Notes under the pieces: generated by a model
Database searches by the model: none
Seen by the model: the letters and a program-made list of their open reading frames with translations, nothing else
Told to the model about the DNA's origin: nothing
Source of the DNA: Carnegiea gigantea
Lineage: Eukaryota; Streptophyta; Magnoliopsida; Caryophyllales; Cactaceae
NCBI GenBank assembly: GCA_029747015.1
Contig: JAKOGI010001362.1
Coordinates: 126,501-190,500 of the forward strand
DNA length: 64,000 nucleotides
Reading direction: 5' to 3'
Part shown: positions 25,379-60,688 of the stretch, piece after piece
Layout of the letters: the number at the start of each line of letters is the position of its first letter
Position numbering within the stretch: the first letter of the stretch is position 1
Made by a program: the position numbers and the translations under genes

Positions 25379-25437
25379 ATATTTTTTTTTGGTGTAGTTG
25401 ATTATCATGATTGTTGAAGCAGTGGCTATATCGTCCA

Positions 25438-25469
25438 CCCGGTTGTACAAATCCAATTGTACAACCGGG
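25438..25469. repeat. Left terminal hairpin of M1
   Basis: Perfect 13-bp arms (cccggttgtacaa / ttgtacaaccggg) around a 6-base loop, 18 bp inside the left end. A related, decayed hairpin occupies the M2 right end (50,431-50,462). Confidence 0.9.
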
Positions 25470-25519
25470 CCCATAAATTGCGCCCACGTACAAAACACAA
25501 AGAAAACCGTCAGATTTCG

Positions 25520-27370
25520 GCTCACTTAAAATGCCTTATAGCTCACTAAAATATGCTGTTGTGCATCTAGTTTCGCTCACTAAAAATAATATATAACTCA
25601 CTAAAATATTTTAGTGAGCTGAGACACAGTTTTAGTTAGTTAATACGTACTTTTAGTGAGTAGACATACCGAAACTAATGTATCTTATGTATCAAGTTTC
25701 ACTTAGTAAAAATATTATATAACTTATTAAATGTGCTATTGTACTAAAAAAGTGTTATTGTGAATCTGAAATTCACTAAATTATATTCTAGTTGTCTATA
25801 TTTTTTTTAGTGAGCTATGATATTTATTTACTGAGTTGGTATCTCATACAACCGGTTGTACAGAACCAATTGTACAATCGAATTTCAGCTCACTAAAATT
25901 GTATAGCTCACTACAATACTTAGTGAGATGAGATACAGTTTTAGTGAGCTAATACATACTTTTAGTGAGCGGATAAATCAAATCAATGCATCTTATGTAT
26001 CCTAGGTTTCACTTAGTAAAAATACTATGTAACTTATTAAAATGTGCTATTGTACTTTAAAAAAAAAGTATTATTGTGCATCTGAAATTCACTAAACTAT
26101 ATTCTAGTTGTCTATATTTTTTTAGTGAGATATGGGATATATTTAGTGAGCTATGACATATATTTAGTGAGTTGAACTATATTTAATTAATTCACTACAT
26201 TTCTATTATACTCACAAAATATAATATAAACATCCTTATGGCATACTAAAAAATGATTGAGTTGTAACATAACCCAAGAACTTCACAATATTATTTGCTG
26301 GCTATCTATACTATTTATTTAGTAAGCTATACTATTTATTTAGTGAGCTATGATAGATATTTGGTGAGTTATAAAATATACTTTGTGATCAATATGATTT
26401 AGCGTGAAATACTAATCATTCATAATAAAAAAATGAGTAAACAAACAATTTTAGTTAGCACATATACTTTTTTGTTCATATTCTAAGGTATGATATATTC
26501 GTCTTTGAGTGAGTTATGACTTATATTTAGTGAGCTATGACATACGTTTAGTGAGTTGGACTATATTTGTATTATACTAACTAAATATGTATAATACGAA
26601 TACGCTTATGTCATAATAAAAGATAATATAAATATTTCTTACTAATATTGTATTGCTCATTAAATATATTATATAGCTTACGAATGCGCCTTTGCCTTTT
26701 GAAACACCAGTAGGATTATACAAAATTCTAACATAATAATCAACATCAACAGCCTCAGCAACAGAACGATCTAATGTAGATATGAAAAATGAGGTATCAT
26801 CTGCAAAAACAACATAATTTTTGTGGTGAGCTATAACGCATAATTGGTGAGCACAATCTTCGTTCTAGTGAGCCAAACACTTGTGTTAGTGAGCAGAAAT
26901 GCTCTGTGGTGCAAGGCAACAGATTTTTTAAAGTGAGCTATTGTTTTCCTGTTATGCATAAGATTAATTATAGTGATTATATTTGATGAGTAGAGAACTG
27001 ATTTATGATTGTTGAATGCAAGCTCAATACAAGTGAGCTAAATGTATTTCTTTAGTGAACCAACGACTATATTTAGTGAGCACATAGCTCATATTGGTGA
27101 GCTGTTGTTTCTCATATGTACATAAAAACAATGAAAATATCATCTGGAAAAACAACCATAACATTTGTGGTGAGCTATAATGCAATATCGGTGAGTACAC
27201 AGGTCAATTCTAGTGAGCCAAACGTTTCTTTTAGTGAGCAAAAACTACTCCGCAACACAGGGTAACATATTTTTTATAGTGAGCTAAATGTACATCTTTG
27301 GTGAGCCAATGACTATATTTAGTGAGCACATAACTCATAACGGTGAGCTATTGTTTCTCATATGTCGCAA
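25520..27370 (-). repeat. Dispersed TTTAGTGAGC motif array in M1
   Basis: Dozens of tagtgagct/ggtgagcta units spaced mostly 20-40 bases apart. From about 25,520 to 25,610 the motif is on the plus strand as GCTCACTAAA. At 25,590-25,622 it flips through the palindrome ctcactaaaatattttagtgag and runs inverted to the right end. A second copy of the terminal block (25,850-26,130) repeats the flip. Confidence 0.9.
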
Positions 27371-27514
27371 ACCAAAATTTACATAACGCAATCCAGTTCA
27401 AAAATCTTGAAATTAACTCATCAAAACGCAAAACTAACGAACACAACTTCTAATCCTAAAAACAAAAACAAAGATCGAAAAAAGCACTATCAAACTTGAA
27501 AAACAATTCCCGTT

Positions 27515-27562
27515 TTATGAAGATTCAACATCAATAGCGATGTTAAGATCAAACCTAACCAT
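27515..27562 (-). pseudogene. Relic of transposase exon 1 in M1
   Basis: The minus strand encodes an M-V-R-F-D-L-N-I-A-I-D-V-E-S-S stretch nearly identical to exon 1 of the M2 transposase (38,100) and of M3 (59,489), then a stop. It lies the same distance from the same element end in all three. Confidence 0.8.
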
Positions 27563-27744
27563 TCAATAATTGCTGAACATTAAAGCAACCGAAGTAGCGA
27601 AGAGCAATCGAAACAGCGAAGAGTAATCGAACAATGAGGAGAATAAAAACCGCGATTTTAAAAAATTGAGGAGAATGAATTTTTTTAAAAAAAAAAAGCC
27701 TAGGGCTCGACAGTTGGATAACTCAAAATCGCTGTTGGTGAGCC

Positions 27745-27771
27745 CGGGTGGACAATTAAGTTGTCCACCCG
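27745..27771. repeat. Right terminal hairpin of M1
   Basis: Perfect 11-bp arms (cgggtggacaa / ttgtccacccg) around a 5-base loop. The corresponding M2 hairpin is 37,925-37,947 with 8-bp arms. Confidence 0.9.
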
Positions 27772-27799
27772 TTGTACATAATGATTTACGTTGTTGAAG

Positions 27800-31016: not shown

Positions 31017-34000
31017 TAGGGTTGAGCAAGATCGGAAACCCGGTCGATTTTTACAGAACCGATCCCAGTTGTGGTTGGACCGGGTTCAGAAATCTAAGAA
31101 CTGGTCCCGATCCTAGTTGGATCGGTTCTAGGATTTCTGAACCCGATCCCAGAACCAGTTAGGATCGGTTCCACAACTAAGTACCCGATTTCTTTTTTTG
31201 GCATTTTTAATTTAATTTTTAATCAGTTTTTTTGGTTAAAAGACCAAACCATTATCAATACATTCATTCATTTTATTAAAATGAGCAATATGCCCACAAG
31301 GCCACAATCTAAAGTTTAATATATAACCAATCAAGTTTGAGAATTAGGATGAGAGGAATAAAGACAAGCACATCTTACAAACCAAGTTTCAAACAAATTA
31401 CAAATTTTAAGTTTACAAAAGCCATAACCACAATTAAAAATATGATCTTAAGTCACAGTTTTGCTTCCAACTAAACAAAGGCCATAACCTGACAATCCAA
31501 TGACTCCATTCATCCTTATGCAACTTTTTGGACCTTAAAAAAAGAAAATTTATGTTAGAATCAAAAAGACCAAAAGACGAAACCAAAGTCCCAAAAACTA
31601 AGAAGATACCTCAATAGAAGATAGCCTCTAATTTTGGCTCCTCTTCAATCACCCATAATTTGATCAATTTCGGTTATCTCTTCCTCACCCAAATCTCAAT
31701 ATTAAAATAAAGAAAAACAAGTTAAAAACCAAAATTCAACATTTAATAATAACTATGAAATACAATGATAAATGTAAGCTATATATATAATTAATATTTC
31801 TCCATATCGTCCATAAGTTGCTCAACATCAATGTAAATGGTGGATGCCCGCAACCAATCTTGAGCACAAATCAAGGTCTGTGTTGTTTTGGGTCCAATCT
31901 ACTAGGAAATTGATCAAATACCCGACTTGATCTACTAAATGCAGACTCACTTGACACGGTAGAAACAGGCACAGCTAGAACATCCCTTGCCATTTCAGCT
32001 GACACCTTATAAGTGTCACTATGTCTCTTCCACTACTTTAAGATGTCAAAAGTGTCATCTACCATTTCGCGAAGAGCATCTTAATAGACATCCAACTTAG
32101 TTTTCTCAACAACCTCCACATCATGTTCCCCATCCTCATGCCACTAAGAGTACAACTCCTTAAGAGTATCATTGTTTAAGGACATCTTTGAATGATCAAC
32201 ATGAATAGGGAAATAAGAACCGTTATGATCATCCTTATCAATATTCACACAAGAATAGTATGAACCGTATAATCTCTTAAGAACACTATAGAGATTATCA
32301 TAAACTCTATCTGCCTTGGCAAAGTCATTGGGATAAAGCTTTCTCAAAGAGAATCTTACAAACTTCAACTTGTATAGTTGATTAAAAAAACAACCCCAAT
32401 CAACACCGTAAGATTAGTTTTTGCCAATCTTCATAATAATCATCAAATTTCTTATGCATTTAGAAAGCCATATCCCGAAGACTAGGAGATGGATCTTTCT
32501 CCCATTCCAAGAAGTTAGTAAGTGTGATCAATAAGTCATGAAAATCCAAAGTGCCAGACATCCTCTTAGTGGCTTCATAAATTGCTCTAAAAACTTTATC
32601 AAGACTTTTGCATTTTCCTAATCCTTTTTCGTAGGAGCATTTTCCTTCAGCTTGTTCTCAAAATTGCAATCATCATTCTTAAATATTTCAAAGGCATTTT
32701 CAAACCTCAAATCCATATTCAACATGAGGAAAGTCTTGTACACACATCCAAGTACAAAGAACCTTTACAAGGAACCTTAACAACTTTGGCATAAGTATTA
32801 AACAATACAGATCTCGCAGGAGAACTCCCTATATATCTAATAGCGTAACGAATGTTATGAATGTAATCTTTAACCCTTGACAAACCATCTCTCACAACCA
32901 AATTTAAAACATGGGCAGCACATATCATATGGAAAAAATCGTCATTCAAAACAAGCTTATCACTAAGATTGTCTTTCAAATAACTAACAGCCACATTTGG
33001 AACTTGCATTATCAACAGTTAAACACGAGAGTTTATCTTTAATACCCCAATCAATAACACAACTCTCCATAGCTTTTCTAATTTCTTTGCCTTTATGACT
33101 ATCCATCAACTTAAAATTTAAAATTCTCTTACGCGAATTCGTTCATCATCTATGAAATGTGCAGTCAAGCAATGATAATTCAAATTTTGCACAGTTTTTC
33201 AACAATCAGTTGTGAGAGCAATTCTAGATTTCAAATCTTTCAAAGTAGTTTTCAAGGCATCTTTCTCACAAAGATAAAGTTTCTTACAATCTCGAACAAC
33301 AGCGAAGCGAGATGGGACATGACTAACAACTTATGGACAAGAAACGCTCACAAAACCCCTAAAGCCTTCCTTTTCAACTACGGAAAAGGGATGCTTATTA
33401 ATAATAACCATTTTTGCTAAAGCAGGCCTAATAGCCTCTGGATTAAAGGACCAATTGGAGAGAGTAACACTCTCATTTTGTGGGTCTCTAAACAAGGAAA
33501 TCTTCGTTTGTTTTTTATCCACATTGTAAGGATATTTAGAATATGATTGAAGATGCTTTCTCAAAGTAGAAGTCACATTATTAGGGTTGGCAGACAATAC
33601 CTTGCTACAATACTTGCATTTCACTTTCTCAATTTTCTTGGTCACTGGATTAACGATGTCAGTAAAATGCTCCCAATAAATTGATTTCCTCTTACCACCA
33701 AACTTTACTTGCTCCTTGCTAGTTTTGTTATGGAAAGCTAAACCAGAACTAGCATTACTCTGCTCTTCCAAATTAGTATGACCTTCCATGCTGATGTTCT
33801 TCAAAATAAGAGAAGAAAAAGTAAGTACTTACAATTTCTTCCTCTAATGCTTGCAAACTAACTTTATCAACTAATGAAGTGAGGAGAAGGGCTGGTGAGT
33901 TTATTGCCAGGGTTAAAAGCAGATCAAGCTTGAAGCTAATCAGGTTCTAGTTTACTAGCTAGTTGAAATAATTGTAGGGAAGATTTTGTAGTACTTTAGT

Positions 34001-36454: not shown

Positions 36455-37440
36455 AGCGATACACATCTCTTTAGGAGGATTCAAGATTAACCCGTTGATG
36501 CACGCAAAAGGGTCGTACATTCAAAGATTAATCGATAATCAAGTGAAATTCACTTTTGGAGGATTCTCACCTTAAGAGGATTCAAGGTTAACCCGTTGAT
36601 GTACCCAAAATGTTCGACATTCATAGGTTTATCAATAATCAATTAGTCAAATTCACCTTTGAAGGATTTTCGCCTTATGAGGATTCAAGATTAATCCGTT
36701 GATATACCCAAAAGGGTTAAACATTTAAAAGTTAACCGATAATTAAATCAAATTCCCCTTTGGAGGATTTTCATCTTAGGATGATTCAAGGTTAGCCTGT
36801 TGATGTACCCAAAAGAGTCAGACATTCAAAGGTTAACCGATAATCAAGTCAAATTAACATTTGAAGGATTTTCGCCTTAGAAGGATTCAAGGTTAACCCG
36901 TCGATGTACCCAAAAAGGTTAGACATTCAAAGGTTAACCGATAATCAAGTCAAATTCACCTTTGGAGGATTTTCACCTTTTGGAGGATTTTCAACTTAGG
37001 AGGATTCAAAGTTAACCTGTTGACGTATCCAAAAGGGTTAGACATTCAAAGGTTAATCGATAATCAAGTCAAATTCGCTTTTGGAGAATTTTTGCCTTTT
37101 GGAGGATTTTCAACTTAGGAGGATTCAAGGTTAGCTCGTTGATGTACCCAAAAGAGTCAGACATTCAAAGGTTAACCAATATCAAGTCAAATATCCTTTT
37201 AGAGAATTTTTCGCCTTCGCAGAATTTTTGCCTTTAAGGAAGTTCACGTCAGGAGGATTCGAGGTTAGCCCGTTGATGTACCCAAAAGAGTTCGACATTC
37301 AAAGGTTAACCGATATCAAGTCAAATCTCTTTTTGGGAGAATTTTTCGCCTTTGCCTTGAAGAAGTTCACCTTAGGAGAATTCAAGATCAACCGTTGATG
37401 TACCCAAATGGGTGAGACATTCAAAGGTCAATTAATAGTC
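36455..37440 (+). repeat. About 100-bp tandem repeat array
   Basis: Nine or ten copies of a unit with gaggattcaaggttaacccg, gttgatgtacccaaaagg and gataatcaagtcaaattcac. The gttgatg marker recurs at about 36,496, 36,597, 36,698 and 36,799, giving a 100-103-bp period. Later copies have small internal duplications of the tttggaggatttt segment. Confidence 0.88.
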
Positions 37441-37893
37441 AAGTCAATTTTATCTTGAAAGAGAATCCACGAGATCAAGAGATTTAAAGATTATTAATTA
37501 GTGTTGTACATCTTACCGCAAATCATAATAATGCCCAAAAAAAAAAAAGTGAAATGTTGCTACCAACTTGAATTACGAACCAGCACATAAAAGAAAAGGA
37601 ATAAAAAATGGAAAACCAAAAACAGAAGGCAAAAAAAAAGGAAAAAAAAAGCAGTAGCAGTCAATTATTGTTCTCGCAGGGAGGAAACCATTGACAGCAA
37701 AAGTTCTTCAAGGTGTTCTTCTGATAGGTAGATTGCAAGCAAGTTCGCCCTTCTTGAAGGGCAGCTCTAAAGTTGAAACTCGGGAATGCCAACAGCAGGA
37801 AGTTTGGATTAATGTTATTTCCATCGCACGGCCAAGGCATCAATTCATTGAAAATGAAAAAAAAACAATCACAATCTTTCAATTTGCGCTGAA
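37441..37893. other. Unrecognised tail of the repeat element
   Basis: AT-rich DNA with several A runs, then about 220 bases of more mixed composition. No domain is seen in the overlapping frames at 37,661-37,921. Confidence 0.5.
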
Positions 37894-37924
37894 GAATTAC
37901 TCCGCATTTTATTACGTACAACTA

Positions 37925-37947
37925 GGTGGACATTTCATTTGTCCACC
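37925..37947. repeat. Left terminal hairpin of M2
   Basis: 8-bp arms (ggtggaca / tgtccacc) with a 7-base loop. It is the counterpart of the perfect 11-bp hairpin at the M1 right end. Confidence 0.8.
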
Positions 37948-38499
37948 CGATCACACTACAAAGCGTTTCAGGCAGCAACTACCTCTTAAAAAAAAAATTC
38001 ATAGTTCTCAGTATTTGAACTTGCCGTTTTCATTCTCTCTCATTCTCGCACGGATTTGTGGTCGCTGCTGCAATTGCTTTAGTATTCTGCAATTACTAAA
38101 TGGTTGAGTTTGATCTTAATGTTGCTATTGATGTTGAATCTTCATCAAATGCAAATTCATCGTCAGGTTTGATATCGTTTTTTTGGATCTCTATTTTTGT
38201 GTTCGTATTTTGAAGTTATATGCATGGGTTTTTGAATAGTTAATTTCAAGTTGTTTGAACTAGTTTGTATTATTGTTGTGTTGTCGTGATCTGACATTAT
38301 AATGCAATTGTTCTTGAGTTGGTGATTTTGCGAGTTATTGTTCTGCATTTTGGCAGAATGTTTGATTGGTGTTTTTAGTTGTGTTTTGTGTTAATTTCGG
38401 TTAAGATACAAGTGTACCATGGTTTTTTCGTTTAACTATTGAATATTATGTGAATTTTGGTTAGTGACATATGAGAAACAATTGCTTACCGTTATGAGT

Positions 38500-39003
38500 T
38501 GTGTGCTCACTAAATACAGTCGTTAACTCACTAATGGTATATATTTAGCTCACTAAAAAGAATATGTCGCCTTCTACTACAGAGCAATTTTTTGTTCACT
38601 AAACGAAACGTTTGGCTTACTAGTATTGAACTCTGTGCTCACCGATTTTGCACTGTAGGTTACCAAAAATGTTATGGTTGTTTTTCCAGACGATATTTTT
38701 ATTGTTGCCATCTACATATGAGAAACAACAACTCACCAATATAAGTTATGTGCTCACTACATATAGTCGTTGGCTCACTAATGAAATAACTTTAGCTCAT
38801 TGAGATTCAGATTGTATGCATGAATCATTTATCAGTTTCTGTACTCACCAAATGTAATTACTATATTCCATCTTACGCCTATCATAGAACAGAATCTGTT
38901 ACCTTCGACTATGCTACATAGCATTATGTGCTCACTAAGACAAGCATTTGGCTCACTGGAATGAAGCTTGTGCTTACCAATTTTACATTATAGCTCACCA
39001 CAA
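38500..39003 (+). repeat. GCTCACTAAA motif array, transposase intron 1
   Basis: Units such as gctcactaaatac, ggctcactaatg and gctcaccacaaa recur every 20-40 bases. A segment starting acatatgagaaacaa (about 38,468 and 38,714) repeats with a period near 245 bases, showing tandem growth of the array. M1 carries the reverse complement of the same blocks (about 26,800-27,360). Confidence 0.88.
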
Positions 39004-40339
39004 AAATAATTTTTTTTTTTTTTGTGGATGATACTTCTTTTTACACATCTACATTAGATCGTTGTGTTACTGAGGCAGTTGATGTTGATGATTATGTTAG
39101 GATTTTGTGTAATCCTACTGGTGGTTCAAAGAGCAAAGGTGTGGCTTCTGATGATGGTAATGGTGTTGGTGGTGTATCTAACTATGTTGTGATTGATAAG
39201 GAGAAACATGGAGATGGTGATGAATGTGTTGTTGAAGTGAAGGAATGTGAAGAATCAGAACTGATTGGTAGAAGGGTCAATTCTCTAGATACTGCATTTG
39301 AGGTATACAATGAGTATGCTTTTCGTAAGGGTTTTTCCATTAAGTGTGACAAGTTGCGAAGGAGAGAGGGTTCACAAGAGGTTCGTTCAAGAGAGTTTTG
39401 TTGCAGCAAACAAGGTGTTAAAAGGCGTCCAGGAAAAAAAAGACAAGACATTTACAAAACGGAGCCGGATGTGTAATTGTAAAGCTAGGGCTATATTTTA
39501 CATTGAACCAAATGGGGAATGGGGTTGTAAGAAGCATGAAATGGTTCATAATCATGAACTGCTTTTGGAAGATGAGGTGCATAAGTTGAGGTCACATAAA
39601 AAAGTCGAGAAAGCTCATGTGGACTTTTTCTAAAAGATGAGGAGAAATGGTATGAAAGTTTCACATGCGTATCAGCTTCTAAGAAATGAGGTCGGGGATT
39701 TACCATCACTTGGTTTTAGTGAGAGGGATGCGTACAATAGTGTTGCAAATAACGTCAAGAGGACTTTACATAGGGGCGATGCCAATCATTTGATGTGTGT
39801 TTTAGAAGTCAGGTGTGCTAATGAACAAGATTTTTTTTATAAGTTTAAATTAGACGAGGATGATTGTTTGATGTGCTTCTTTTGGAAAGATTCACAAATG
39901 AAATGTGATTACTTGTTATTTGGTGATCTCCTTGTATTTGACACGACATATAGGACCAATCGTTATGAGATGATATGTGCACCATTTGTTTGTATGAATC
40001 ATCATGTGAAGAATGTTATGGTGGGATGTGGGTTTTTTATGAATGAAAAGATTGAGAGTTTTGTGTGGTTATTTGAAACATTTTTGGAAGCTATGGGTAA
40101 TGTGCAACCGAAAACTATGATGACGGACCAAGCATTTTCTATGGCAAATGCTATTGAAAAGGTGTTCCCCTTGGCAAAGCATAGGTTGTGTACTTGGCAC
40201 ATCTTGGAGAATTCAAAAAAGAATATTAGTCATCTTAGAGTATTGGGTAGATTTGTTGATAAGTTTGACCATGTTTTGATGAGATGTGATACAGAAGTAG
40301 AGTTTAACTTTTGTTGGCAAAGGTAAGCCCTCTGTCTGT

Positions 40340-40500
40340 TTGCTATTTTTTAATGTGCTCACCAAGTTATTGCTTTATGCTCACTATTTTTTAGTGTCTC
40401 CTCACCCAAGTTATATGTTTTTGCTCACTAGACTATACCTTCTGCTCACCATGGTTACATTTTTCTGCTCACTAGTTTATTATTTTTTGGTAACTGGTTT
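40340..40500 (+). repeat. CTCACTA motif array, transposase intron 2
   Basis: The short intron between the two catalytic-domain exons consists largely of tgctcaccaag, tgctcactatt, tgctcactaga and similar units. I did not see the hexamer GCTCAC in the flanking exons. Confidence 0.85.
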
Positions 40501-41634
40501 TGTGTGTTAGGCTAGTTGAAGATTATAATTGTGCTGAAAATGCTTGGTTTGTTAGATTATTTCGGTTGAAAGAAAAATGGTGTCCAGCCCATTGCAAGGA
40601 TGTTTTCTCTGGTGGCATTTTATCGTCACAAAGAAGTGAGTCGACAAATGCTTCTTTGTCAAAGAGAGTCAATGGCACTTGTGGGTTGTTTGATTTTTAC
40701 AATATATTCTGTGACGTTGTTACTGAGTGGAGGATTAAGGAGAAGGATGAGAATGTGAAAAATAAGGATGGATTTTCCGATATGTACTTGCCACATGTTA
40801 GCATTTTGCAGCATGCTTCAAAGATCTATACGAACAACTTGTACAAAGCGTTTGAGAATAAATACATTAAAGGAGAAGGGTGTTATCAAGATCTTCTTAG
40901 CTCAAGTGAAACCCCCTACAGTACAGAGCATAAATATGTTGTGTATGAGAATCGTCTTTCGAAGAAGTTTGGGTTTGTGGTTAGGTTTAATCTACCAGAC
41001 CATAATATTGTTTGTGATTGTAAAAAGTACAGTGAGAGTGGTATTTTCTACTGCCACTGCTTGCGTATTTTCAATGTTCATTGTGTGCCTAAAGTCCCTG
41101 ATCAATATATTTTGAAACGATAGACTAGGCTAGCAAGACCTCCACGGGTTGTAGAAGCTGTAAGTAGTAATACATCTAGTGTTCCCGGTTCTATATGGAG
41201 GGTTTAGATGCATAGGTAGTTTGAAGCTTTGCTTTTTACAAGTGACTCAAATAGTCAAGCAAGAAAGCTATGTGAAGAAGCATTTGCCAAGCTGAAGGGT
41301 GATGTTGGTGTTGTTGTGGCTTCTGTTTATGTTTCTGACACTGAAAATGATCAACAGTCCAGTGGTGGTAACAAAATCATTGGTAATCCTAAAGGTTCGA
41401 GGAAGAAAGATGAAAGGAATGTAAGAAGGAAGAGTACGTTGGAGAAGATATCAAATATTGTTAGATCAAGGAAGGCAAGGTTTTCTTTAAGAAATTTAGA
41501 GGAGATGTGTCTCAACATTAGGTAAAATTCTATTGATAATCTGATTGAATAAGCTATATTTCTTATAGTAATATCGTTTTGGAGTTTTCTGAGTTTGCTG
41601 CTAATACCAGTAGAATTAATATGTGTTTGTAGCG

Positions 41635-42690
41635 CACTAAATGTTTTGATACGCTCACTAATATATGGGCTCCGCTCCCTAGAAGTTTGTATTGGCTCAC
41701 TACGTTTTCAGTTCTCACACTGTTACTCTTACATGTTGCACTCACTATATTTAATACGTTGGCTCACTAAGTACATATATATGCTCACTACAAATATGTT
41801 TTTGCTGTGGTGGTTTAGGTTGTCGCTGCAGGTTCATCTAATACACCAGTTGCATCTAATCCAGCGGTAGACTTTAATGAAATATATATGGTTTTTAGCT
41901 TGATTTTTGATGAAAGGTTGAGGCCAACAAATGGGGATACGATTCCTAGCAATCAGTTGAATCCTGTTTCTAAAGCTGCTAGCATTCAAGGATAATATGC
42001 TTACTATTATAGCGTGTCTGCTCACTTAAAATATTTATTGGCTCACTAATATAATGTTTCTGCTCACTACATTTAGAGATTTGGTTCACTAAAGTTATGT
42101 ATATGGTTTGTTATTTTTGATACAGGTTACGTGGGAATCAAGCATGGAATTTTGCTATGATGATAGAGGGAATTCGCTTCTACCATTAACGATTTTTTTT
42201 TGCCACCTGGGCCATTCAATAGTATGACTTGAACAAATATTTTAAATGTAAATTTGTATCTTGAGTAATAGTGCTCGAATGTGTATTCTGATGTTTTAAT
42301 GTTTTTGTGTTTGAGAATTGTTTTTTTATTTGAAGTTCAAGTAAATGATGCTGAATAATTTTGAAGGTTATAATAGGGTATTAGGGTGAATACTTTTGAC
42401 ACGCATAATATGTTGTACTCACTGCTGAAGATTCATAGCTCACTAGCTTCATGTGTTAGCTCACTATTTTCTACAAAACTACTGTAATATATTTGATGAC
42501 TTCACATTATAAAAGTATAGCAGTGTATGACAATGACATGTTGAACACTTTAATATTTGACTTAACATTATAAAGAAAATATCATTGTAGTTTGATTCTA
42601 CATTCATTTATAGAATTGAGCATAGTAAAAGATATAGCTCACTGGATTTCGCTACGAGCTCACTGCATTTGTCTTCTACCTCACTGGAAT
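41635..42690 (+). repeat. CTCACTA motif arrays around the 3' exons and spacer
   Basis: Clusters at about 41,640-41,800, 42,010-42,090 and 42,410-42,690 (gctcactaaatatt, agctcactagctt, agctcactggatt). They separate the last exon-like pieces of the transposase and continue into the spacer. The rest of the spacer up to 43,150 has no feature except ggctgatt.gtcacgctgttg duplicates near 42,870. Confidence 0.8.
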
Positions 42691-43394
42691 TTGACATAGT
42701 AATCGATTAAAAATATCCAATAGTGAATGCTGTTTACTAGTACTTCACCATGATTAAAGGTAAGAATATTAATTGTCTGAGTTAAAATTAGTCTAGCTAA
42801 AAATTAGACTGTAAATATAAGTTTCTAAAATTAGTCTAACTTAAAGTAAGGCTGATTAGTCATGCTGTTGACACTTGAGGTTGGGCTGATTAGTCACGCT
42901 GTTGGCACTTAAGGCTGGGCTGATTTTGTATTTAGTTCTGCTTATTGTTTATCATGGAACTCTCCTCTTCACTCTATTTTTATATATATTGTCGTCATTA
43001 TTGATGATTTCATAGCAGTACCGTGCTCGCATTACATCAAGCAGATTTTTGTCCTGCAAACAAAACACACACAAAAAAAAATGAACCATTAATAGGTGTT
43101 GTATTTATTTTGAACATATTTTTGTAGAGAACATATTTTTGGTAAACTTACTTCATTTTTCTTGGAACCACAATCTCATTTATCTACTTCTCCAAAATAA
43201 GACTCCACGTGCCTCATACAAAAAATTCCACAATCTGTGACATTATCTGTTGTCCTACATTGCATTCTCATTTGTACTAGTTTCATGTTCTTCACAATTT
43301 CATGTTTGGGGTCTCCAACACTCTCTTGAAAAAATCTGGCAAAAGATCTTTTCTGTGTGCAATAAACAACTTTGTTCAACTCACAGAAATTGGG

Positions 43395-43640
43395 TAATAG
43401 CTCACCAAATATGTGTCTTTGCTCACTAAGAATGTGTGTTGGCTCACCAAATATGTTTGTTAGCTCACTACATATATATATGAGCTCACTAAATATGTGT
43501 GTTAGCTCACAAATATTATGTGTTAGCTCACTACACATATGTATTAGCTCACCAAATACGTGAGATAGCTCACCAATATTATATGTTAGCTCAGCAATAA
43601 TATGTATTAGCTCATCAAATTTGTAAGCTCACCAGATTTT
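43395..43640 (+). repeat. GCTCAC motif array, last intron of the Ulp1-like gene
   Basis: Ten exact GCTCAC hexamers by hand count in about 245 bases, mostly as agctcaccaaatatgtgt or agctcactacatat, spaced 20-30 bases. It lies between the His/Asp exon and the Cys exon. Small open frames here on both strands are translated repeat. Confidence 0.9.
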
Positions 43641-44579
43641 TGTATTGATGTATTATAAAGTAAATGATTCAGTGAGGATTTGAACATACCATTAACAGAT
43701 GGGTTTCTCCATATGTTGTTTTGTGTGGAGCAATGATGTGCTTGTTGTCGATGACATCAAGCCTTTCCTCCTTCAAATCAAAGCAGAAGACGAAGAAGTG
43801 CTTCTTGTGACATACTAGGAAGAACATCTTGAAATTGGAGAATGATTAATATTATATAATGTGATGTTTTAATATACAATTAAAATGTATTAGATGATTG
43901 CTTACCAGATACAATAATTTTCCTGAGATCCATTTATCACATCTCTGGAATTTTTTTTGAAGAATTGTTTCAAAATCAATGTACCTTCCTTCTGCTGATT
44001 TTGCTGGATTTATCGAGGGGTCCAAGATTGACTATATTTTTGCAGCAATATAATTAGGTGTTTGATTATGTGTATCTGAGTAAATTTAAAATAAGTATAT
44101 ACTTACCATTGCATCAACTAGTGCAAAAAATCTTCTTGGAGATCCTTCACTTTTCTTTCTCTCCAAGTTTTGTTGAGGATAGCAGCCCAAACATTGATTA
44201 CCTGGGTATTAATGTATTCTCATGGACGCATGTTGACGTGTGATAACGATATGCAACATGTATGTCGCTATCAAACATTTCTTCACTGGTTTAGTAAGAA
44301 AAGTAAAAAAAAAAAAATTGTAAGTTTATATTCATTTTATTTCAACTGTTTGTAAGAGTGTTACGTGTGAGAGTTATGTGCTGACTTTGAATCAAGATCT
44401 TGTGACAGATGGAATACATATTCAGCTACGCTCCTTTCCTAGGCTAACAAATCCCCTGTAATCTTGGTTATTCTCTGCACAAAAGGAGAGTAGAGGGGCT
44501 CTATCATTGGGCCTTTCTCTCTCCTCGGTTGATGTATTGGCTTTTTGCTATGCTCTTCTCCTGCATACATAACATGTGT

Positions 44580-44990
44580 AAGTGCTCACTAAAATAGTTG
44601 CTATGCTCACTGAAATACTTGTTGTGCTCACTAACATATATGTTCTTTATAGTCACACATATGCCCTGCTCAGTAACACATGTGTTCTGCTCATCAAGTC
44701 ATACTTTATGCTCACTAAAATATAACTTCTACTCACTAACATATGTGTTCTGCTCACCAAGTTATACTTTATGCTCACTAAAATATAACTTCTGCTCACT
44801 AACATATGTGTTCTGCTCACCAAGGTATACTTTATGCTGACTAAAATATAACTTCTGCTCACTAATATATGTGTTTTACTCACCAAGTTATAGGTTATGC
44901 TCACTAACATATGTGTTCTGCTCACCAGCTCACTAACGTATGTGTTCTGCTCATCAAGTTATAGGGTATGCTCACTGAAAGCAAGAGCAT
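44580..44990 (+). repeat. GCTCAC motif array, Ulp1-like gene intron
   Basis: Thirteen exact GCTCAC hexamers by hand count in about 410 bases, plus several one-base variants. A higher-order unit of about 80 bases (tatgctcactaaaatataac .. tgctcaccaag) repeats in tandem from 44,697 to 44,890. Confidence 0.92.
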
Positions 44991-44999
44991 GGTCAATGA

Positions 45000-45470
45000 A
45001 AATCCTTACCATCCTTTTTTTCTTTTTTATTCTTTCCATCTTCTCTACCATGAGATTTTTGCTCTCTTTCAGTTATTTTCTGCCTTTCTTCCCCCTCTGT
45101 TTGTGTTTCTAGAATTGGTGGTGGTGGTGGTGTTTGAGATGATTCATGTGGTGGTTGTGTCACAAGGGCTTGTGATGGATGTTGTGGGTGGGAGGGTGGT
45201 GGTGTCTGACGTGCCTTTGGATGAGAGAAAGATGGTGTGTTTGATGTGTTTGTGGAGGAGGAAAAGGTGGTGGTGTCTGATGTGTCTGTTGAGGAGGAGA
45301 AGGTGGTGGTGTCTGATGTGTCTCTGCAGGGGGGAGGGTGGTGGTGCTTGATCTACTTTTGTAGGGGGCGGATGGTGGTGTGTGAAGTGATGCTGGTGCT
45401 GCTAGTGTTGCAGTAGTTGGGCTTTGGCTATCATCAACCAACTTAAAACTTGGTATGTCATTGCTCCTTA
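45000..45470 (-). pseudogene. Pro/Thr/His-rich segment of the Ulp1-like gene
   Basis: The minus strand is open from 45,441 to 45,160 and reads PPPSPPQQTHQTPPPFPPPQ-type repeats. The position between readable exons suggests a disordered linker, but it could be a non-coding GGTGGTGT repeat. No domain recognised. Confidence 0.45.
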
Positions 45471-46284
45471 CCTTGATGCAGAAGCTTTGCTATTGGTGCT
45501 GCTGGTCTATTGTTGCCTTACAAAAGCATTCTCTAACTCAATTATGGCCTCAAGTACAGCAGATCTATTCTACCATTCTTCATCTTGACTAAATGATGGT
45601 ATCTCAGCAGTTTCATCCCCCTTTTCTCTTTATGTCACTGGTGGGGATTTTGAGATTTGAGCCTCACAGTAGGAAGTGAACATGCTTATGGCCTTATCTC
45701 TTATCTTTTTGAGTGCTTCATGGTTTTGGTACCTTTTTGATAAGTAGTTCATGAATGTCCTGTACCTCTTGAATGCACTTGCTAAAGCCTTTGTTACTTC
45801 AGCCACTTCTTCCATATCTTTCGGCAATGTGGATAACATTCAAGTATTGTAAGATCTTATATAGATATTTCGTTAAATTATTTCATTCTGCTTGATTGAT
45901 ATGAATGCAATAAAGAAATAAATGTTACCTCTATCTCTTATGGTTCATCATTTTCTGATAAGATTTTTTTATGTTCTTTCTTTTGTGGCTGAGGTTCCTT
46001 TTGCAGAGGTGGTTCAGCATGCACCTCCTTTGTTATTTGTATTGGAGGCTCCACTCTTCCCTTGTTATTTGTATTGGAGCCTCCACTCTTCCCTTTCCAA
46101 AGCCTTTCGGCCCTTCTTTTGCAGCAAGTTGATTGGCTTTTCTTTCTTCTCTAACTCTTTTCCTTAGCCTTTCTGTTGTCCAGCCCTTGATTGTTGGGAA
46201 TTACCTCTGAATAGTCCTTCTTGTCAAGAGAACCCTGTCAAGATACAGCATCTGTAAGAGAAATGTTCTTTGTAATCAGTCTGT

Positions 46285-46985
46285 ATAGCTCACCAAAAAT
46301 GAATCCATTCTCACTAAAATATATCCCATGCTCACCAAAAATGTATACTAGCTCACTAAAATTAAGTAATGTTGTCTAAGAATAATTCTTATTAGGCTCA
46401 CTAAATTTGTGAATAGAGATCAATGTAATAGATAATTGTAATATATGAACAACTAACTTACAGCTCGGCAAAGCTAAACTGTTGCTCACTAAAAGGCTTG
46501 TTTCGCTCACTAGGTTATATTGTATGCCCACTAAAAATAGTGCTCTGCTCACTAAACATTTTCGTGTGCTCATTAAAATATATTGTAGCTCACTAACATT
46601 GAGTAATATTGTGTAACAATGATTCCTATGTGTATGTAGGGTACGTGATGCGTGCTCACTAAAGTGGTCATTGTAGAACAATGTAGTAGACAATTTTCAC
46701 ACATGATGAAGTTTTCCATAGCTCACCAAAAGTTTTGGTGTGCTCACTAAAATACACCTTCTGCTTACTAAAATGTATGTTGCGCTCACTAAAGTACATG
46801 CCATGCTCACCATAATATATGTTAAGCTCACCAAAAGTTTTGGTATGCTCACTAAAATACATCTTCTGCTCACTATATTATATGTTCCTCTCACTAAAGT
46901 AAATGACATGCTCATCATGATATATATTTAGCTCACTAATTATATATGTTCAGCTCACTAAATTTGACATTGTGCTTACTGAAAA
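46285..46985 (+). repeat. GCTCAC motif array, long intron of the Ulp1-like gene
   Basis: About 25 units (gctcactaaaatac, gctcaccaaaagttttgg, gctcactaaagt). Two copies of a roughly 110-base block, each starting agctcaccaaaagttttggt, are seen at 46,721 and 46,828. Confidence 0.9.
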
Positions 46986-48589
46986 CATAATATTCTGATA
47001 GAGTATAAAGAACTTACCATCAAGAAGAGAATAGGGTCATCGAAGTTTGAAACCCTCTTTTTGACAGATTCACATAATCTGTTAATGGTGTATTGACACC
47101 AATCAATTGTTGCTATATCCTCAACATGAGCAACATTCTTGGCAAAATAGGGTGTGCAATGTACGTTCTTTGAACCATTGGAGAAGCATGATACCATGTA
47201 TAGCACAAAATTTCTCTTGAAACTTTCCCCTACATTAGTCTGGCTGAGTATGTATTGTGGCATTTGGCTCAGCTTAGGGGTCCCATCTTCCAGATTCCAG
47301 TCTTTTCTTCATGAATCAAGGACTTCGTTGTATTGGGCATCTTTTGGCTTTTTCCCATAAAACTCCTCAACTTTCCTTCCACCAATAGGGAGTGCCAATG
47401 TAAGATGCACATCCATTGGTGTCATCCCAATCCTTTTATCAGGTGATATATACAAGGTGACTGAGCATGGGTCAAATCTGTCTACTAGCCATTTGCATAA
47501 ATCCCCTGGCAATTCAGTGACTTCTAAGTGGAGGAATCATCCAAACCCTATATCTTGTATTGCTTTTCTTTATGCCTCATTGAAATTATCAATCATGCCA
47601 ACAAACCCTGATGGTGACATTCTTGTTTGAAAGATCTTTTTGGATTTTGTGTCTCCCTCTGCAGGCTTTGGCACAGATTGCATAGACTTGGGGCCTTTAA
47701 CAGGGACAATAGCACTTTTTCGGACATCCTCCTTCTTCTTCAGGGATTTTTGTTCTTTTTTATGCTTCATAACTGAGGGTAGTCTACTCTTTATAGGAGG
47801 TTTAGGACTCTTTTGGACATCCTCCTTCTTCTCAAGTTGTGCCTTAACACACTTTTTTAACCTGACTTGCATTTTCTTTGGCCTAGACTTTGTTCCTTGT
47901 TTTATCTTCTTCATTCTCTTCACCAATACTCCATCATCAGACTCAGATTCATCATCATGTCCAGAGGGAGGTATTTTGTAATTGGTGTCCTCCACAGTTT
48001 CATCTGTTTCCTCTAAAGGTTATTGATGAATGTCGATAATTGTTTTTTCAGAGCTTTCTTGGGCAGTGTTTTTGGGAACATTGGGGGAGTTTCTGCTGTG
48101 CATTATTTTCTCTCCCTTTTGTTGTTCTGTTTGCCAACATTCTGATGTGCATCAGTCTTCTTTAGCTCCTTTTTCCTTTTTTTACAGCACGAACTTTAGT
48201 CTCTGCCCTGATGTTGGTGTGCGTTGTTGAGGTGGGTTTGCTATTTTTTGCTGCTCTTGTCCTCCCTCTCCCTGTTGAATAGGCTGTGATTGTTCCATAG
48301 CATGCACACTTTGTGGTTTTTCCAGCACCTGAAGTAGGTGGAGTGTTGCAAATATTTCTGTTCTTCCTAACTTCTTGTTTCAGCCTTCTTTTAGTTGCAG
48401 TACTACTTGTTGCGCTGGTTTTCCCACCAGACGTTGTCTCCCTTGCTGTGGATAGGGTTTCCTGATGCTTTGGTTGAGCTTCCTTGGTTGCTTCTTCTGC
48501 AGCTGTACATGGTATTTTGTATAAGTGAACAAGATGTATAACTAAATAAATGTGTAATGTTTAATGTAATGGGGGTCTCAATATATATA

Positions 48590-48960
48590 TTTTAGCTCAC
48601 TAAAATAAAATGTCTGCTCCCCAGAATTATAGGTCAGCTCACTAAAATAAATTGTCCGCTCACCAGAATTATAGGTCAGCTCACTAAATATAGTTGTCTG
48701 CTCACCAGAATTATATGTGAGCTCACTAAACATAGTTGTCTGCTCACTACAATTATAGGTCAGCTCACTAGACATAGGTGTCTGCTCACTACAATTGCAG
48801 GTCAGCTCACTAAATATAGTTGTCTGCTTACTACATTTGCAGTCAGCTCACTAGATATTTGTATTAGCTCACCAATCAATATGTCAGGTTCACTATTTGA
48901 TAGGTATTAACATAGAATATAATGTAGACGTGCTTTGAATATAATTTCCCATGCTCACTT
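48590..48960 (+). repeat. GCTCAC motif array with about 50-bp higher-order unit
   Basis: Twelve exact GCTCAC hexamers by hand count in about 290 bases. They alternate as cagctcactaaatatagttg and tgctcaccagaattatag, giving a regular two-motif unit of about 50 bases repeated five or six times. Confidence 0.92.
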
Positions 48961-49309
48961 CACATGGAATTTAGATGATTACATATAAGCTTACATAATC
49001 TAGACATACCTTGGCCTGAATTGTGTGTAATATCACCTTGCATTCCTTGACTTATTTCATTTGTTTTATTTTGATCATTTGGGCTTCAATAAAAAAGGAA
49101 AAGATAATGTTCGTGTAGTGGACTATTCCGTGTGTATTTTTTCATATATTTCGAGTGGTAATTACCAAATGTTCACTTGCTAAGATGAGTTGTCTCTAAA
49201 AGCCTTCATAATGATGTCTTGAGGGCTTGTGTTTGACCCTTCTGTCTTTGATCTATCAAATAGTAATAAATATAATGTTAATATTACATGAAATGTGATA
49301 ACACACTAG

Positions 49310-49965
49310 AATAAAAGGTACAACTCAGCACCAATATACCACTATCATATAAGATACAACTCACTGTATATGTGAAATAGTATATGAAAGGAGATTGGAG
49401 TTCTAGATTGCACACTTTAATGTATGGTTCCACTCTCTAAATTTAAGGTATAGCACAGTAGGATGTAAAGTACAGCTCACTATATTATAAAACAGAAATC
49501 ACTATAGGATGTCGACAGAAACTTGCATATTATTCACTGCTCACTACATTTTTATCATGGGTCACTATATTCAAGCCATAGCTCACTAAAATATAGGGCA
49601 CAACTCACTGGAGCATGCATATGTTGACAGCCACTAGCACATAATTTATAACTCACCAGATTTTTGTCATGGCTCACTACATACAAGCCTTAGCTCCCTA
49701 CATTATAAGACACGACTCACTATGGGATTCATATGTTGACAGGAACAAGCACATAATTCATAACTCACTAAAATGAAGATATGGCTCACCACAATATAAG
49801 GTACAACTCACTATAGAACAAAATCAGAAGAGTTGAGGTAAAAGTGTCTTGGATGTATTAGTCAACATCAAGGTAAACGTGTTTATTGTAAATTTACAGA
49901 CAAAATCAGGAACAAGCACGTACTGCTCACTGGTTATGTACGTTTGCTTACTAATATTAGGTTTA
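49310..49965 (+). repeat. Diverged CTCACTA array near the right end of M2
   Basis: Units such as acaactcactatag, tcatggctcactac and atagctcactaaaatat, with atatgttgacag spacers. M3 carries a close relative of this block at 59,645-60,170. Confidence 0.85.
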
Positions 49966-50430
49966 AGACGGTTTAAGGTTCTCAACATACCTCTTCTGAG
50001 GAGTGTTTGATGCATCACTAGCAGATCTCTTCTTCGCTGCTGATGAATGTTGAGCTTCCATCTACAAACATTTGAAAAACGCGATAATGAGTGTGCGATT
50101 TTAACAAAACCTACAATGTTAAACCAATTCATCGTTTTGTTTTGATCATGCCAATAAATTTCGTATATGCTAAAACTTACGTCGAATTTGTTTGCTTCAA
50201 ACTTGAGTAGTGATTTTCCGAAGATTTCTTGCTAGAATCGGTGAGCAAAGGTACCAGAATTTCGCCAATTCAAGCATGAAGTTGAGTGGGTTTTCGAAGA
50301 GAGAAAGTGAGCGGAACTTTTTGGGTCGTGGTGTTTTGAAGTTGTAGTTATGAGCTTTTGTTGTTTTTTTTTTTAGGCGGTGGTTTCTTCACTTTATGCT
50401 TCGTGGTGCGCCAGTTAGACAATGGGTGGG

Positions 50431-50462
50431 CCCGGTTGTATAAATGCAATTGTATAATCGGG
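50431..50462. repeat. Right terminal palindrome of M2
   Basis: cccggttgtataa / ttgtataatcggg arms match at 10 of 13 positions around a 6-base loop. In M1 the same arms are perfect. Confidence 0.75.
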
Positions 50463-50489
50463 TGGACGATATAAGAACTAGAATTACTC

Positions 50490-54827: not shown

Positions 54828-55970
54828 CTAATTGCTTACAGAAGGTATAAGAAGGTTCATAAGCTTCTGGCATGACTCAAGGTTGGTTCGACAAAAAAAG
54901 AGGCTATCATCTGCAAACAATAGACAAGGCAATTTATCTGCTTGGGGTGAAATGTTGAATACTTTTCCACTTTTCTTTTTACTAAGTTCTGTGCGTAATG
55001 CTCGCGTTAGTACTTCCATGCATAAAAGAAAGAGATACGAAGATAAAGAATCCCCTTGCCATAATCCTCTGGTTGGGGTAAAAAACCCCAAAACTTCTTC
55101 GTTCACAATAATCAAATAGGATACAGTGGAAACACATTGCTGAATCCACATTATCCATTGTTGATAAAACCCTAGTTTTGTGAGACTGTCAAATAGGAAG
55201 CTCCATTCCACTCGATCGTAAGCTTTTTCCATATCAAGTTTGAGTGCAACCCGGGATTTCTTGCCCTTCATAGAATTAAATTTACTGATGACCTCATGTG
55301 CTAACAAGATATTATCGTGCATGGACCGGTGTAGAATAAAGGCGCTTCGGACAGGGTCGATGAGTTTTTCAAGAAGAGGCCGCATTCTGTTCACCAGAAT
55401 TTTGGCAATGATTTTCTGAAGCGTATTGCATAAACTAATAGGTCGAAACTGCGCTGTAACTAAGTGATTATCAACTTTCGGGATTAAAGCGATAAGTGTA
55501 TGATTAATTTGTTTTAGCAGCTTGCCTTCTAGGAAAAAAGACCAAACTTTCTGACAAACATCATTCTGTACAAAGTGCCAATGGTCCTGAAAAAAAGCTG
55601 CGCCAAACCCATCAGGTCCCTTTGCTTTAAATTTATCCATCTGGGACACTACCTCTCTAATCTCATGATTATCAACAGGTTTAATAAGACTCATATTATC
55701 TTCCAAAGAAACCATTGTGGGTAGGTCGACCATCGTTGAATATGGACCTGGCGATGACTTGAAACGTGACTTAAAGTCGTTAGCAAATAATTGTTGAATA
55801 GCAACCGCGTCGTCAATCCAGACTCCCGATGAGTCTTTGATTTTTACAATAGTAGAACGCAATTTCCTAACTTTCGTCGCTTGATGGAAAAAACGAGAGT
55901 TTCTATCTCCATTAACAAGCCAATCTTTCCGTGCTAATTTTTTCCAGTATTTTTTATTAAATAAGTACAT
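54828..55970 (-). pseudogene. Reverse transcriptase of the LINE
   Basis: A 380-residue open frame. Conserved RT blocks are KFKAKGPDGFGAAFF, HTLIALIPKV, FRPISLCNTLQKIIAKIL, ALKLDMEKAYDRVEW (catalytic Asp) and LLFADDSLFF (FADD catalytic pair). The usual GLRQGDPLSPYLF block reads GLWQGDSLSSYLF here. Those three changes fit C-to-T substitutions and probably inactivate it. The downstream frame continues with a break at 54,828. Confidence 0.9.
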
Positions 55971-56165
55971 TTTCTCACACTATTTAATGAGTCGGTAGTG
56001 CCAGCTATTGAGCCGAGCACTGTTGGTCTGGGCCACAAGTTTTTGCTCGACTTGTAGCAAATTTTCGGCATTTCGTTCAAGTTTGTGCTTAAAGTTGCCG
56101 AATGTGCTTTTACTCCATGTTTTGAGCTCAAGTTTTATTTTTTTCAGTTTCTGAGTAATGTAATA

Positions 56166-59247: not shown

Positions 59248-59488
59248 TTAATCTTTAGGTACCTTATGTACGCAAATTATTACGTACAACCGGTTTGATA
59301 CTTCATTTATCCACCCGATCCCACCTCCCAACGGCTATATGCGTTGTCTATTTGAACTGACTCTTAAAAAAAAAAATATTTATTGTTCTCAATTTTTGAA
59401 CTTGTCGTTTGCCGTTTTCATTCTCTCTCATTCTCGCACTCAGTGGTCAATGTTGTAATTGCTTTAGTATTCTGCCAGTTCTTACTAA

Positions 59489-59555
59489 ATGGTTGAATTT
59501 GATCTTAACGTTACTATTGATGTTGAATCTTCATCAAACGCGATTTCGTCGTTAG
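59489..59555 (+). pseudogene. Transposase exon 1 relic in M3
   Basis: Reads MVEFDLNVTIDVESSSNA, almost identical to M2 exon 1. The gtttgatatcg string after the M2 exon is also kept. Confidence 0.82.
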
Positions 59556-59644
59556 GTTTGATATCGTTTTTGGATCTCTATTTTTGTGCTCATATTTTGA
59601 AGTTATATGCGTAGGTTTTTGATTCATTAGTTTCGAGTAGTTTG

Positions 59645-60170
59645 AACTGGTATGCATTCATATGTTGACAGGAACTATGTTATAAGACGGATGTTAGTAT
59701 AGGATGCATATGTTAAAAGGAACTAGCATATTATTCACAGCTCACTACAGTTTTGTCATGGCTCACTATATTCAAGTCATAACTCACTAAAATATATGGC
59801 ACAACTCACTGGAGCATGCATATGTTGACAGGCACACAGCACATAATGTACAGCTCACCAGATTTTTGTCATGACTTACTACATACAAGCCTTAGCTCAC
59901 TACATTATGACACACGACTCACTGTAGCAGACATATGTGTACAAAAACAACCACATAGTTCACAACTCACTAAAATGAAGACATGCCTCACCATAATACA
60001 AGGTACAACTCATTATAAAACAGAATCCTAATAGTTGAGGTAAAAGTATCTTGGATGTATTATTAAACATCAAGGTAAACGGGTTCATTGTAAATTTGCA
60101 GACAAAATCAGGAACAAGCACATGCTGCTCACTGATTATACACGTTTGTTCACTAATATTATGTTTAAGA
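59645..60170 (+). repeat. CTCACTA motif array in M3
   Basis: Same units and atatgttgacagg spacers as M2 49,310-49,965 (gctcactacagttttgtc, gctcactatattcaag, actcactaaaatatatgg), same strand orientation relative to the ends. Confidence 0.88.
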
Positions 60171-60192
60171 AGTCTTAATGTTGTCAACATAC

Positions 60193-60263
60193 CTCTTCTG
60201 AGGAGTGTTTGATGCATCGCTAGCAGATTTCTTCTTCGATGCTGATGAATGTTGAACTTCCAT
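60193..60263 (-). pseudogene. Ulp1-like gene exon 1 relic in M3
   Basis: Reads MEVQHSSASKKKSASDASNT on the minus strand with the same GTATGTTG splice donor as M2. Differs from M2 exon 1 by three residues. Confidence 0.82.
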
Positions 60264-60688
60264 CTGCAAACATTTGAAAAACGCGATAATGAGTGTGCGA
60301 TTTTCTTAAGACCTAGAATGCCAAACGAATTCATCAATTTCTTTTGATCATGCCAATAAATTTCGAATCTGCTAAAACTTACCTCGATTTTGTTTGCTTG
60401 AAACTTCAGTAGTGATTTTGCGTAGATTTGTTGATAAAATCAATGAGCAAATGTAGTAGAATTTCTCCAATTGAAGCACGAAATTAAGTGGTTTTGGGAG
60501 AGAGAAAGTAAAGGAAGTTTTTAGGTCGTGGTGTTTTGAAGTTGCAGCAGTTACGAGCTTTTTTTTTTTTTTTAGGCGGCGGTGATTCACTTTTTGCATG
60601 GTGAGGGCGCCAATTAGGCAGTGGGTGGGCCTGGTTGTACAAATGCAATTGTGCAATCGGATGGACGGTATAATTACTGCCCTATGTA

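Follow-up and report, generated by a model that had tools for sequence, protein, structure and literature searches.

The 64,000-bp stretch of the Carnegiea gigantea genome analysed here (the window; C1362:126501-190500) contains M2, a Mutator-like element (MULE) at 37903..50479 on the plus strand, through whose noncoding DNA a short motif recurs, nearly always in one orientation and mostly at 21-bp steps. The element is bounded by a 10-bp target-site duplication (TSD), AGAATTACTC, at 37893-37902 and 50480-50489, which bears out the boundaries drawn in a preliminary description of this DNA. Its ends are degenerate and of the kind without terminal inverted repeats (non-TIR), the left end and the reversed right end sharing weak local similarity only. 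Both this TSD and the 9-bp TSD of E1, a shortened relative in the same window, are inside the 8-11 bp range given for MULEs (PMC6446971).

Two oppositely oriented genes are found in M2, and both are interrupted by stops. The transposase gene (38101..42228, plus strand) encodes FAR1 and MULE domains identified by Pfam and is decayed, with a frameshift as well as stops and an altered intron-1 acceptor: the end of intron 1 reads GTGG, and the E1 equivalent reads GCAG. The MULE domain (PF10551) was recovered with E=1.9e-28 at 39634-40323 and with E=3.4e-27 on the joined pieces, and the FAR1 domain (PF03101) of the N part with E=1.6e-12 on the read-through protein. There are 511 homologues at E<=0.001, the best of which is 45% identical (Cuscuta), and most of the best 120 of these 511 are named FAR1-related or SWIM-type.

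The second gene (42990..50058, minus strand) is also decayed. It is composed of a K-rich N part, a domain shared with Carnegiea gigantea proteins, a proline-rich part with 36-bp coding repeats, and a C part. The closest proteins are six Carnegiea gigantea hypothetical proteins (63-79% identical), and 51 of the 53 matches are named Carnegiea, so the gene belongs to a multi-copy Carnegiea family. The 36-bp coding tandem repeat occurs at 45195-45346 and specifies a proline-rich peptide. In the C part of this decayed copy, a DCGIFCMRH stretch resembles Ulp1 by eye, which is the basis of the earlier label "Ulp1-like"; neither the Pfam profile nor a PDB search of the C part returned Ulp1 (Peptidase_C48), and the joined N and C parts of the decayed copy had no Pfam match. 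The predicted fold of one relative, P0001, had a mean pLDDT of 51, too poor for a fold search. Four patterns used to look for array-encoded peptides among the 53 relatives found none.

The motif was scored with a 13-position weight matrix refined on M2 (consensus TNNGCTCACYAAA, threshold 8 bits). This identified 118 sites on the plus strand of M2 and three on the minus strand, where a first-order Markov model of the element expects 3.3 per strand, and 10 plus and 8 minus sites in the other 47,590 bp of the window. Deriving the matrix from M2 somewhat inflates the count in M2 itself; the exact word GCTCAC does not have this bias and occurs there 84 times on the plus strand and three times on the minus strand. 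The local counts of this word reported previously are exact (13 in 44580-44990, 12 in 48590-48880 plus one on the minus strand, and 10 in 43395-43640).

All 118 plus-strand GCTCACYAAA sites are in the 6,326 bp of noncoding DNA in M2, where they occupy 11 of the 19 noncoding segments, 10 of these with at least two sites. None falls in the 18 exon segments (6,246 bp), which were drawn by hand, partly with knowledge of the arrays, and have several junctions a few bases off; homology independently supports transposase exons 2 and 3 and the large exon of the second gene. The motif is neither exonic nor common in other DNA, and the earlier observation that it avoids exons stands. The CpG observed/expected ratio is similarly low in arrays (0.24) and exons (0.26), and higher in the remaining noncoding DNA of M2 (0.67) and in other window DNA (0.58). 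Since exons are as CpG-poor as the arrays and the core word itself contains no CpG, no conclusion is drawn from these values.

Four introns of the transposase gene hold 31 sites, the central spacer five, and introns of the minus-strand gene 82; all coordinates that follow refer to sites on the plus strand. Transposase intron 1 contains arrays with 15 sites (38505..39005), the 187-bp intron 2 an array of five (40357..40480), intron 3 one of six (41653..41796) and intron 4 one of five (41999..42097). The five sites of the spacer between the two genes occur at 42417..42671. Within introns of the minus-strand gene there are an array of 12 sites (43400..43640), one of 19 sites with a 63-bp higher-order unit (44584..44983), arrays totalling 24 sites with a 105-bp higher-order unit (46288..46987), and one of 14 sites with a 42/84-bp higher-order unit (48595..48880). 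Intron 1 of that gene contains arrays of 12 sites with a 112-bp unit (49475..49959).

The preliminary description placed the motif every 20-40 bases, which is incorrect: the sites follow a 21-bp register. Among the 106 neighbouring pairs in M2 that are less than 130 bp apart, 75 are spaced by 21 bp, nine by 22 bp and two by 20 bp; spacings of 8, 17 and 23 bp occur once each, and the remainder are at least 42 bp. When runs are broken at gaps of more than 48 bp, 97 of the 106 21-bp steps inside them carry a site and nine are empty. Because 21 bp corresponds to two turns of B-DNA, this spacing suggests that a protein could load on one face of the helix.

The core and the spacer behave differently. 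Between M2 blocks the 10-base core is 77% identical, whereas identity in the spacer (bases 10-17) is 33%, where random sequence gives 31.5%; the position three bases ahead of the core reaches 56%. Inside a single block, identity between spacers separated by one to six units is 42-60%. The blocks grew by local amplification, and blocks that have no spacer sequence in common still have the same core and step. These observations bear on the possibility that the arrays are a neutral 21-bp minisatellite of single origin that was copied into several introns, with exon insertions lost as gene-killing. Higher-order units of 42, 63, 84 and 105 bp are what ordinary tandem amplification would produce, and in short copies of the family the core and the bases around it drift at about the same rate. 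However, spacers between blocks are at random identity while the core and the register remain; drift alone would erase core and spacer together, and so their retention counts against a neutral origin. A single orientation over ten separate segments would also be unexpected. We therefore consider a neutral minisatellite unlikely.

The sites point one way throughout the plus-strand gene introns, the spacer and the minus-strand gene introns, so that polarity tracks the element and not the gene. The statement that the motif is always on the plus strand is accurate for M2 to the extent of 118 sites to three; it overlooks those three minus-strand sites, and E1-type copies have a small reversed block near the right end. 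Element-wide polarity is evidence against the arrays acting as signals in RNA, such as splicing elements (branch points, donors or others); repeats that would produce small RNAs are a further version of this reading. An RNA-level role would fit the intronic position of 113 of the 118 sites and a resemblance by sight of GTGAGC to a splice donor and of CTCAC/CTAAC to a branch point. Yet the two genes are read in opposite directions and their transcripts would carry opposite words, and the intergenic spacer has five sites of its own. An RNA-borne signal would flip between the two opposed genes, and the motif is therefore taken to act at the DNA level; we consider an RNA-level role extremely improbable.

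The preliminary description treated the word as a feature of M2, but two further members of the family in the window carry arrays. E1 (25420..27790, minus strand; TSD TTGTTGAAG at 25411 and 27791) is an inverted, shortened copy whose ends and arrays are of the same type. Its segment 26689-27386 is 80% identical to M2 38446-39139, and 33 sites are along and eight against its own orientation (counted on 25423-27791). E3 (about 59271..60680, plus strand) is a deletion derivative that keeps the left 0.37 kb and the right 1.0 kb of M2, at 79% and 85% identity to the M2 arms, and has an imperfect TSD by eye. It was found by similarity to M2 and not via the motif, and has nine sites along and one against (counted on 59271-60684). 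The matching end regions of E1 (25427-25480) and M2 (50420-50473) contain inverted repeats of their own (by eye, e.g. GGTTGTACAAATCCAATTGTACAACC), and each could self-fold.

Across the assembly (1,134,924,608 bp in 5,575 contigs), GCTCACTAAA occurs 14,833 times and its reversed control 1,010 times, a 14.7-fold difference. Positions were taken from the first 100 matches listed, on contigs 1-3, and 20 stretches were fetched: 14 clusters (all 12 of contigs 1 and 2, and two of contig 3) and six single sites. The commonest spacing in these 20 loci is again 21 bp (138 cases), followed by 22 bp (20 cases). Matches to the family ends were found in 10 of the 14 cluster stretches, eight of which have both kinds of end (L157, L158, L159, L160, L161, L164, L166 and L168) and two one kind (L163 and L169); none of the six single-site stretches has a family end. 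Two other stretches (L156:4824-6104 and L167:4120-5847) contain (A/G)CTCACTAAA-like words in clusters that are less tightly spaced and in which no ends were recognised; these are perhaps older relatives or another family.

Six fetched copies (L157, L158, L159, L160, L166 and L168) were taken as complete, and L161 and L164 were left out. Together with M2, E1 and E3 this gives nine complete copies, all of which have sites; in sum, 311 follow the orientation of the element and 54 oppose it. The six genome copies were picked via the motif, so the share of copies without it cannot be read from them. L159 is even, with six sites in each direction. The arrays are not missing from other copies, as a chance local satellite would be, the outcome against which the earlier account had guarded: they are present in E1, E3 and the six motif-chosen genome copies. 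The anatomy of the arrays is real, statistically overwhelming and common to the relatives sampled. Contigs 1 and 2 total 9.26 Mb and hold eight end-bearing clusters, which suggests, by extrapolation and if these contigs are typical, a number of copies of the order of a thousand.

Host transcription factor sites that drive the M2 genes could also have a strong short core, fixed spacing and clustering in noncoding DNA. But 118 sites over 11 segments, many of them far from both gene starts, exceed what a promoter would need, and of 85 exact sites found on contigs 1 and 2, the 12 clusters account for 67; eight of these clusters have family ends. Recruitment of a host factor is accordingly very unlikely.

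The element's own FAR1-type transposase is a further candidate binder. The arrays could help it to find or fold the element for transposition, in the manner of Spm/Ac subterminal repeats. The transposase has a FAR1 DNA-binding domain, the shortened copies, which depend on borrowed transposase, keep arrays, and all seven E1-type copies (E1 and the six fetched copies) have a reversed block about 75-175 bp from the right end. Against this, forward sites occupy deep introns rather than ends: they are absent from the outer 602 bp (left) and 529 bp (right) of M2, where one reversed site is located 229 bp from the right end, and from the outer 470 and 536 bp of E3. A transposition role of this kind seems quite unlikely.

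Beyond the family, a scan for three motifs at 21-bp steps returned 29 viral-contig stretches and at least 118 genome-contig stretches. These 147 loci were scanned with the matrix, the site lists of eight were inspected, and parts of L029 and L011 were read. Both L029 and L011 consist of GC-rich 7-bp TGAGCAG repeats unrelated to the M2 motif, and L098 has the same 7-bp step; L017 has 24/21-bp steps. No plant locus was recognised among the 147. A literature search for the exact word gave no transposon-related title among the matches listed, and one for cactus MULEs gave nothing relevant by title.

Other features of the window are separate from M2. Direct repeat pairs at 1-155/5803-5957 and 1106-1405/5955-6254, 97% identical, look like parts of the long terminal repeats of a young retrotransposon that the edge of the window truncates. 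An array of 101-134 bp tandem units (TTAGGAGGATTCAAGGTTAACCC...) at 36471-37352 ends about 0.5 kb before the left end of M2. By eye, a 383-aa open frame at 54828-55979 (minus strand) is similar to LINE reverse transcriptases, and an open frame at 33331-33828 (minus strand) has a BED-finger-like stretch, as in hAT elements.

The best of the readings weighed is that the arrays serve self-recognition. We hypothesize that M2 belongs, as a decayed copy, to a Mutator-like family of cacti whose noncoding DNA would form a predicted binding-site array (TNNGCTCACYAAA, about one per 21 bp, nearly all in one direction) for a protein of the family's own. The likeliest binder would be the product of the minus-strand second gene, followed by the transposase. 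Loading would be cooperative, on one helix face, along the whole element; the bound element would stay free of silencing marks, and only array-bearing copies would be freed, as may be compared with the action of VANC on VANDAL. The steps of this model differ in strength. The arrays probably bind a protein, and there is a reasonable, somewhat smaller likelihood that an element-encoded protein is the one that would bind them. For anti-silencing as the outcome, the chances appear to be even. The full reading, in which the arrays would be binding sites for an element-encoded self-recognition factor with VANDAL/VANC-like anti-silencing, is likewise about evenly balanced between being right and wrong.

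Several results weigh against this self-recognition model. DUF1985 was not detected in the joined second-gene parts of the decayed copy (251 + 254 aa, E up to 1, the proline-rich part being outside the scan), nor in the six Carnegiea relatives of the second gene (E up to 10). The best match in those six was the plant mobile domain (PMD), found in one of them with E=0.025, below its cut-off. The analogy with VANDAL21 and its VANC21 protein that was drawn from the outset is partly borne out: it agrees with the target-side sequence features tested, and on the protein side no DUF1985 match came up. Conservation between copies gives a similar caution. When M2 is compared with E1 and E3, leaving out the E3 left arm, which has no sites, 229 of 260 core positions and 1,099 of 1,303 other positions are identical, a difference that is not significant (P=0.13). 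Across the six E1-type copies, with core columns defined on E1 and the comparison made among the others, core conservation is 0.867 and noncore conservation 0.843. Blocks drawn at random from the noncore score 0.835, with 13 of 300 at least as high as the core; shifting the columns by 5 or 11, however, yields 0.861-0.892, and two of the six reference copies, L157 and L166, reverse the order, the core being the less conserved part. The short-copy result is read as drift after insertion; it does not robustly support selection over such a span of time, and the argument for selection consequently rests on the comparison within M2.

A more specific proposal is possible, though doubtful: that a cactus FAR1-type MULE such as M2 would have a sequence-specific system of self-recognition and anti-silencing, one not belonging to the VANDAL/DUF1985 lineage, in which recognition would depend on a helically phased 21-bp array and not on motif density alone, and in which array-bearing short copies (of the order of a thousand, extrapolated) would be activated in trans. 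Anti-silencing in Mu-like elements has already been published, and the M2 motif, the 21-bp register and the cactus host would be a variant of it. The VANC papers raise the puzzle of how a protein encoded by a transposon can label several kilobases of that transposon's DNA while sparing all other sequences. If the self-recognition model is true, a second example, from a distantly related order of plants and with another motif, would let the general features (noncoding, one-way and dense) be recognised, and the two-turn spacing would be a simple geometric rule, testable with synthetic arrays. It would also suggest tools for sequence-addressed demethylation with a new address.

Among known systems, the subterminal repeats of Spm and Ac also place many short binding words of the same family in one element; the M2 sites differ in that they are deep in introns, with no forward site in the terminal 0.5-0.6 kb. 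Jittery-type MULEs resemble M2 in having FAR1 in the N part and a MULE transposase, and the account of them in PMC6446971, as far as it concerns these elements, mentions no motif array for Jittery. The same account assigns FAR1 to the Jittery group and describes PMD in antisense orientation in at least two plant MULE groups, and captured PMD has been speculated to serve anti-silencing (PMC5418596). Ulp1-carrying MULEs (Kaonashi/KIU and CUMULE; melon, grapevine and rice) and eudicot VANC systems are similar to M2 in possessing a second gene, which in M2 has, by eye, a cysteine-protease-like DCGIFCMRH end. According to a review citing Sasaki 2022, Ulp1-carrying VANC genes act on their own motifs (PMC13317346). 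For M2, the decayed second gene gave no Ulp1 profile match, and a link between the M2 arrays and that protein would be hypothetical.

The closest likeness is to Arabidopsis VANDAL21 (Hiun) with VANC21 and VANDAL6 with VANC6. As described in PMC5735166 and PMC10398659, these are, like M2, Mutator-like elements with no long TIRs and an extra gene, and they have a dense short motif in one orientation, often in tandem repeats, in introns and in intergenic and terminal noncoding DNA, mainly outside coding sequence. VANC21 binds YAGTATTAY, which occurs in one orientation and at high density in the noncoding regions of VANDAL21, often as tandem repeats; VANC expression leads to extensive loss of methylation throughout VANDAL21, and the variable regions of VANC proteins carry tandem peptide motifs (PMC5735166). 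The words differ, GCTCACYAAA in M2 against YAGTATTAY or AGTTGTCC/AC in the VANDAL21 and VANDAL6 systems, and no counterpart to the 21-bp register of M2 was met in the passages on motif arrangement consulted in those two accounts (PMC5735166, PMC10398659). M2, known here from sequence alone, further differs in the FAR1 domain of its transposase, in the second gene in which DUF1985 went undetected, and in its cactus host. By these features M2 would work like a VANC target, yet it is not filed as a VANDAL.

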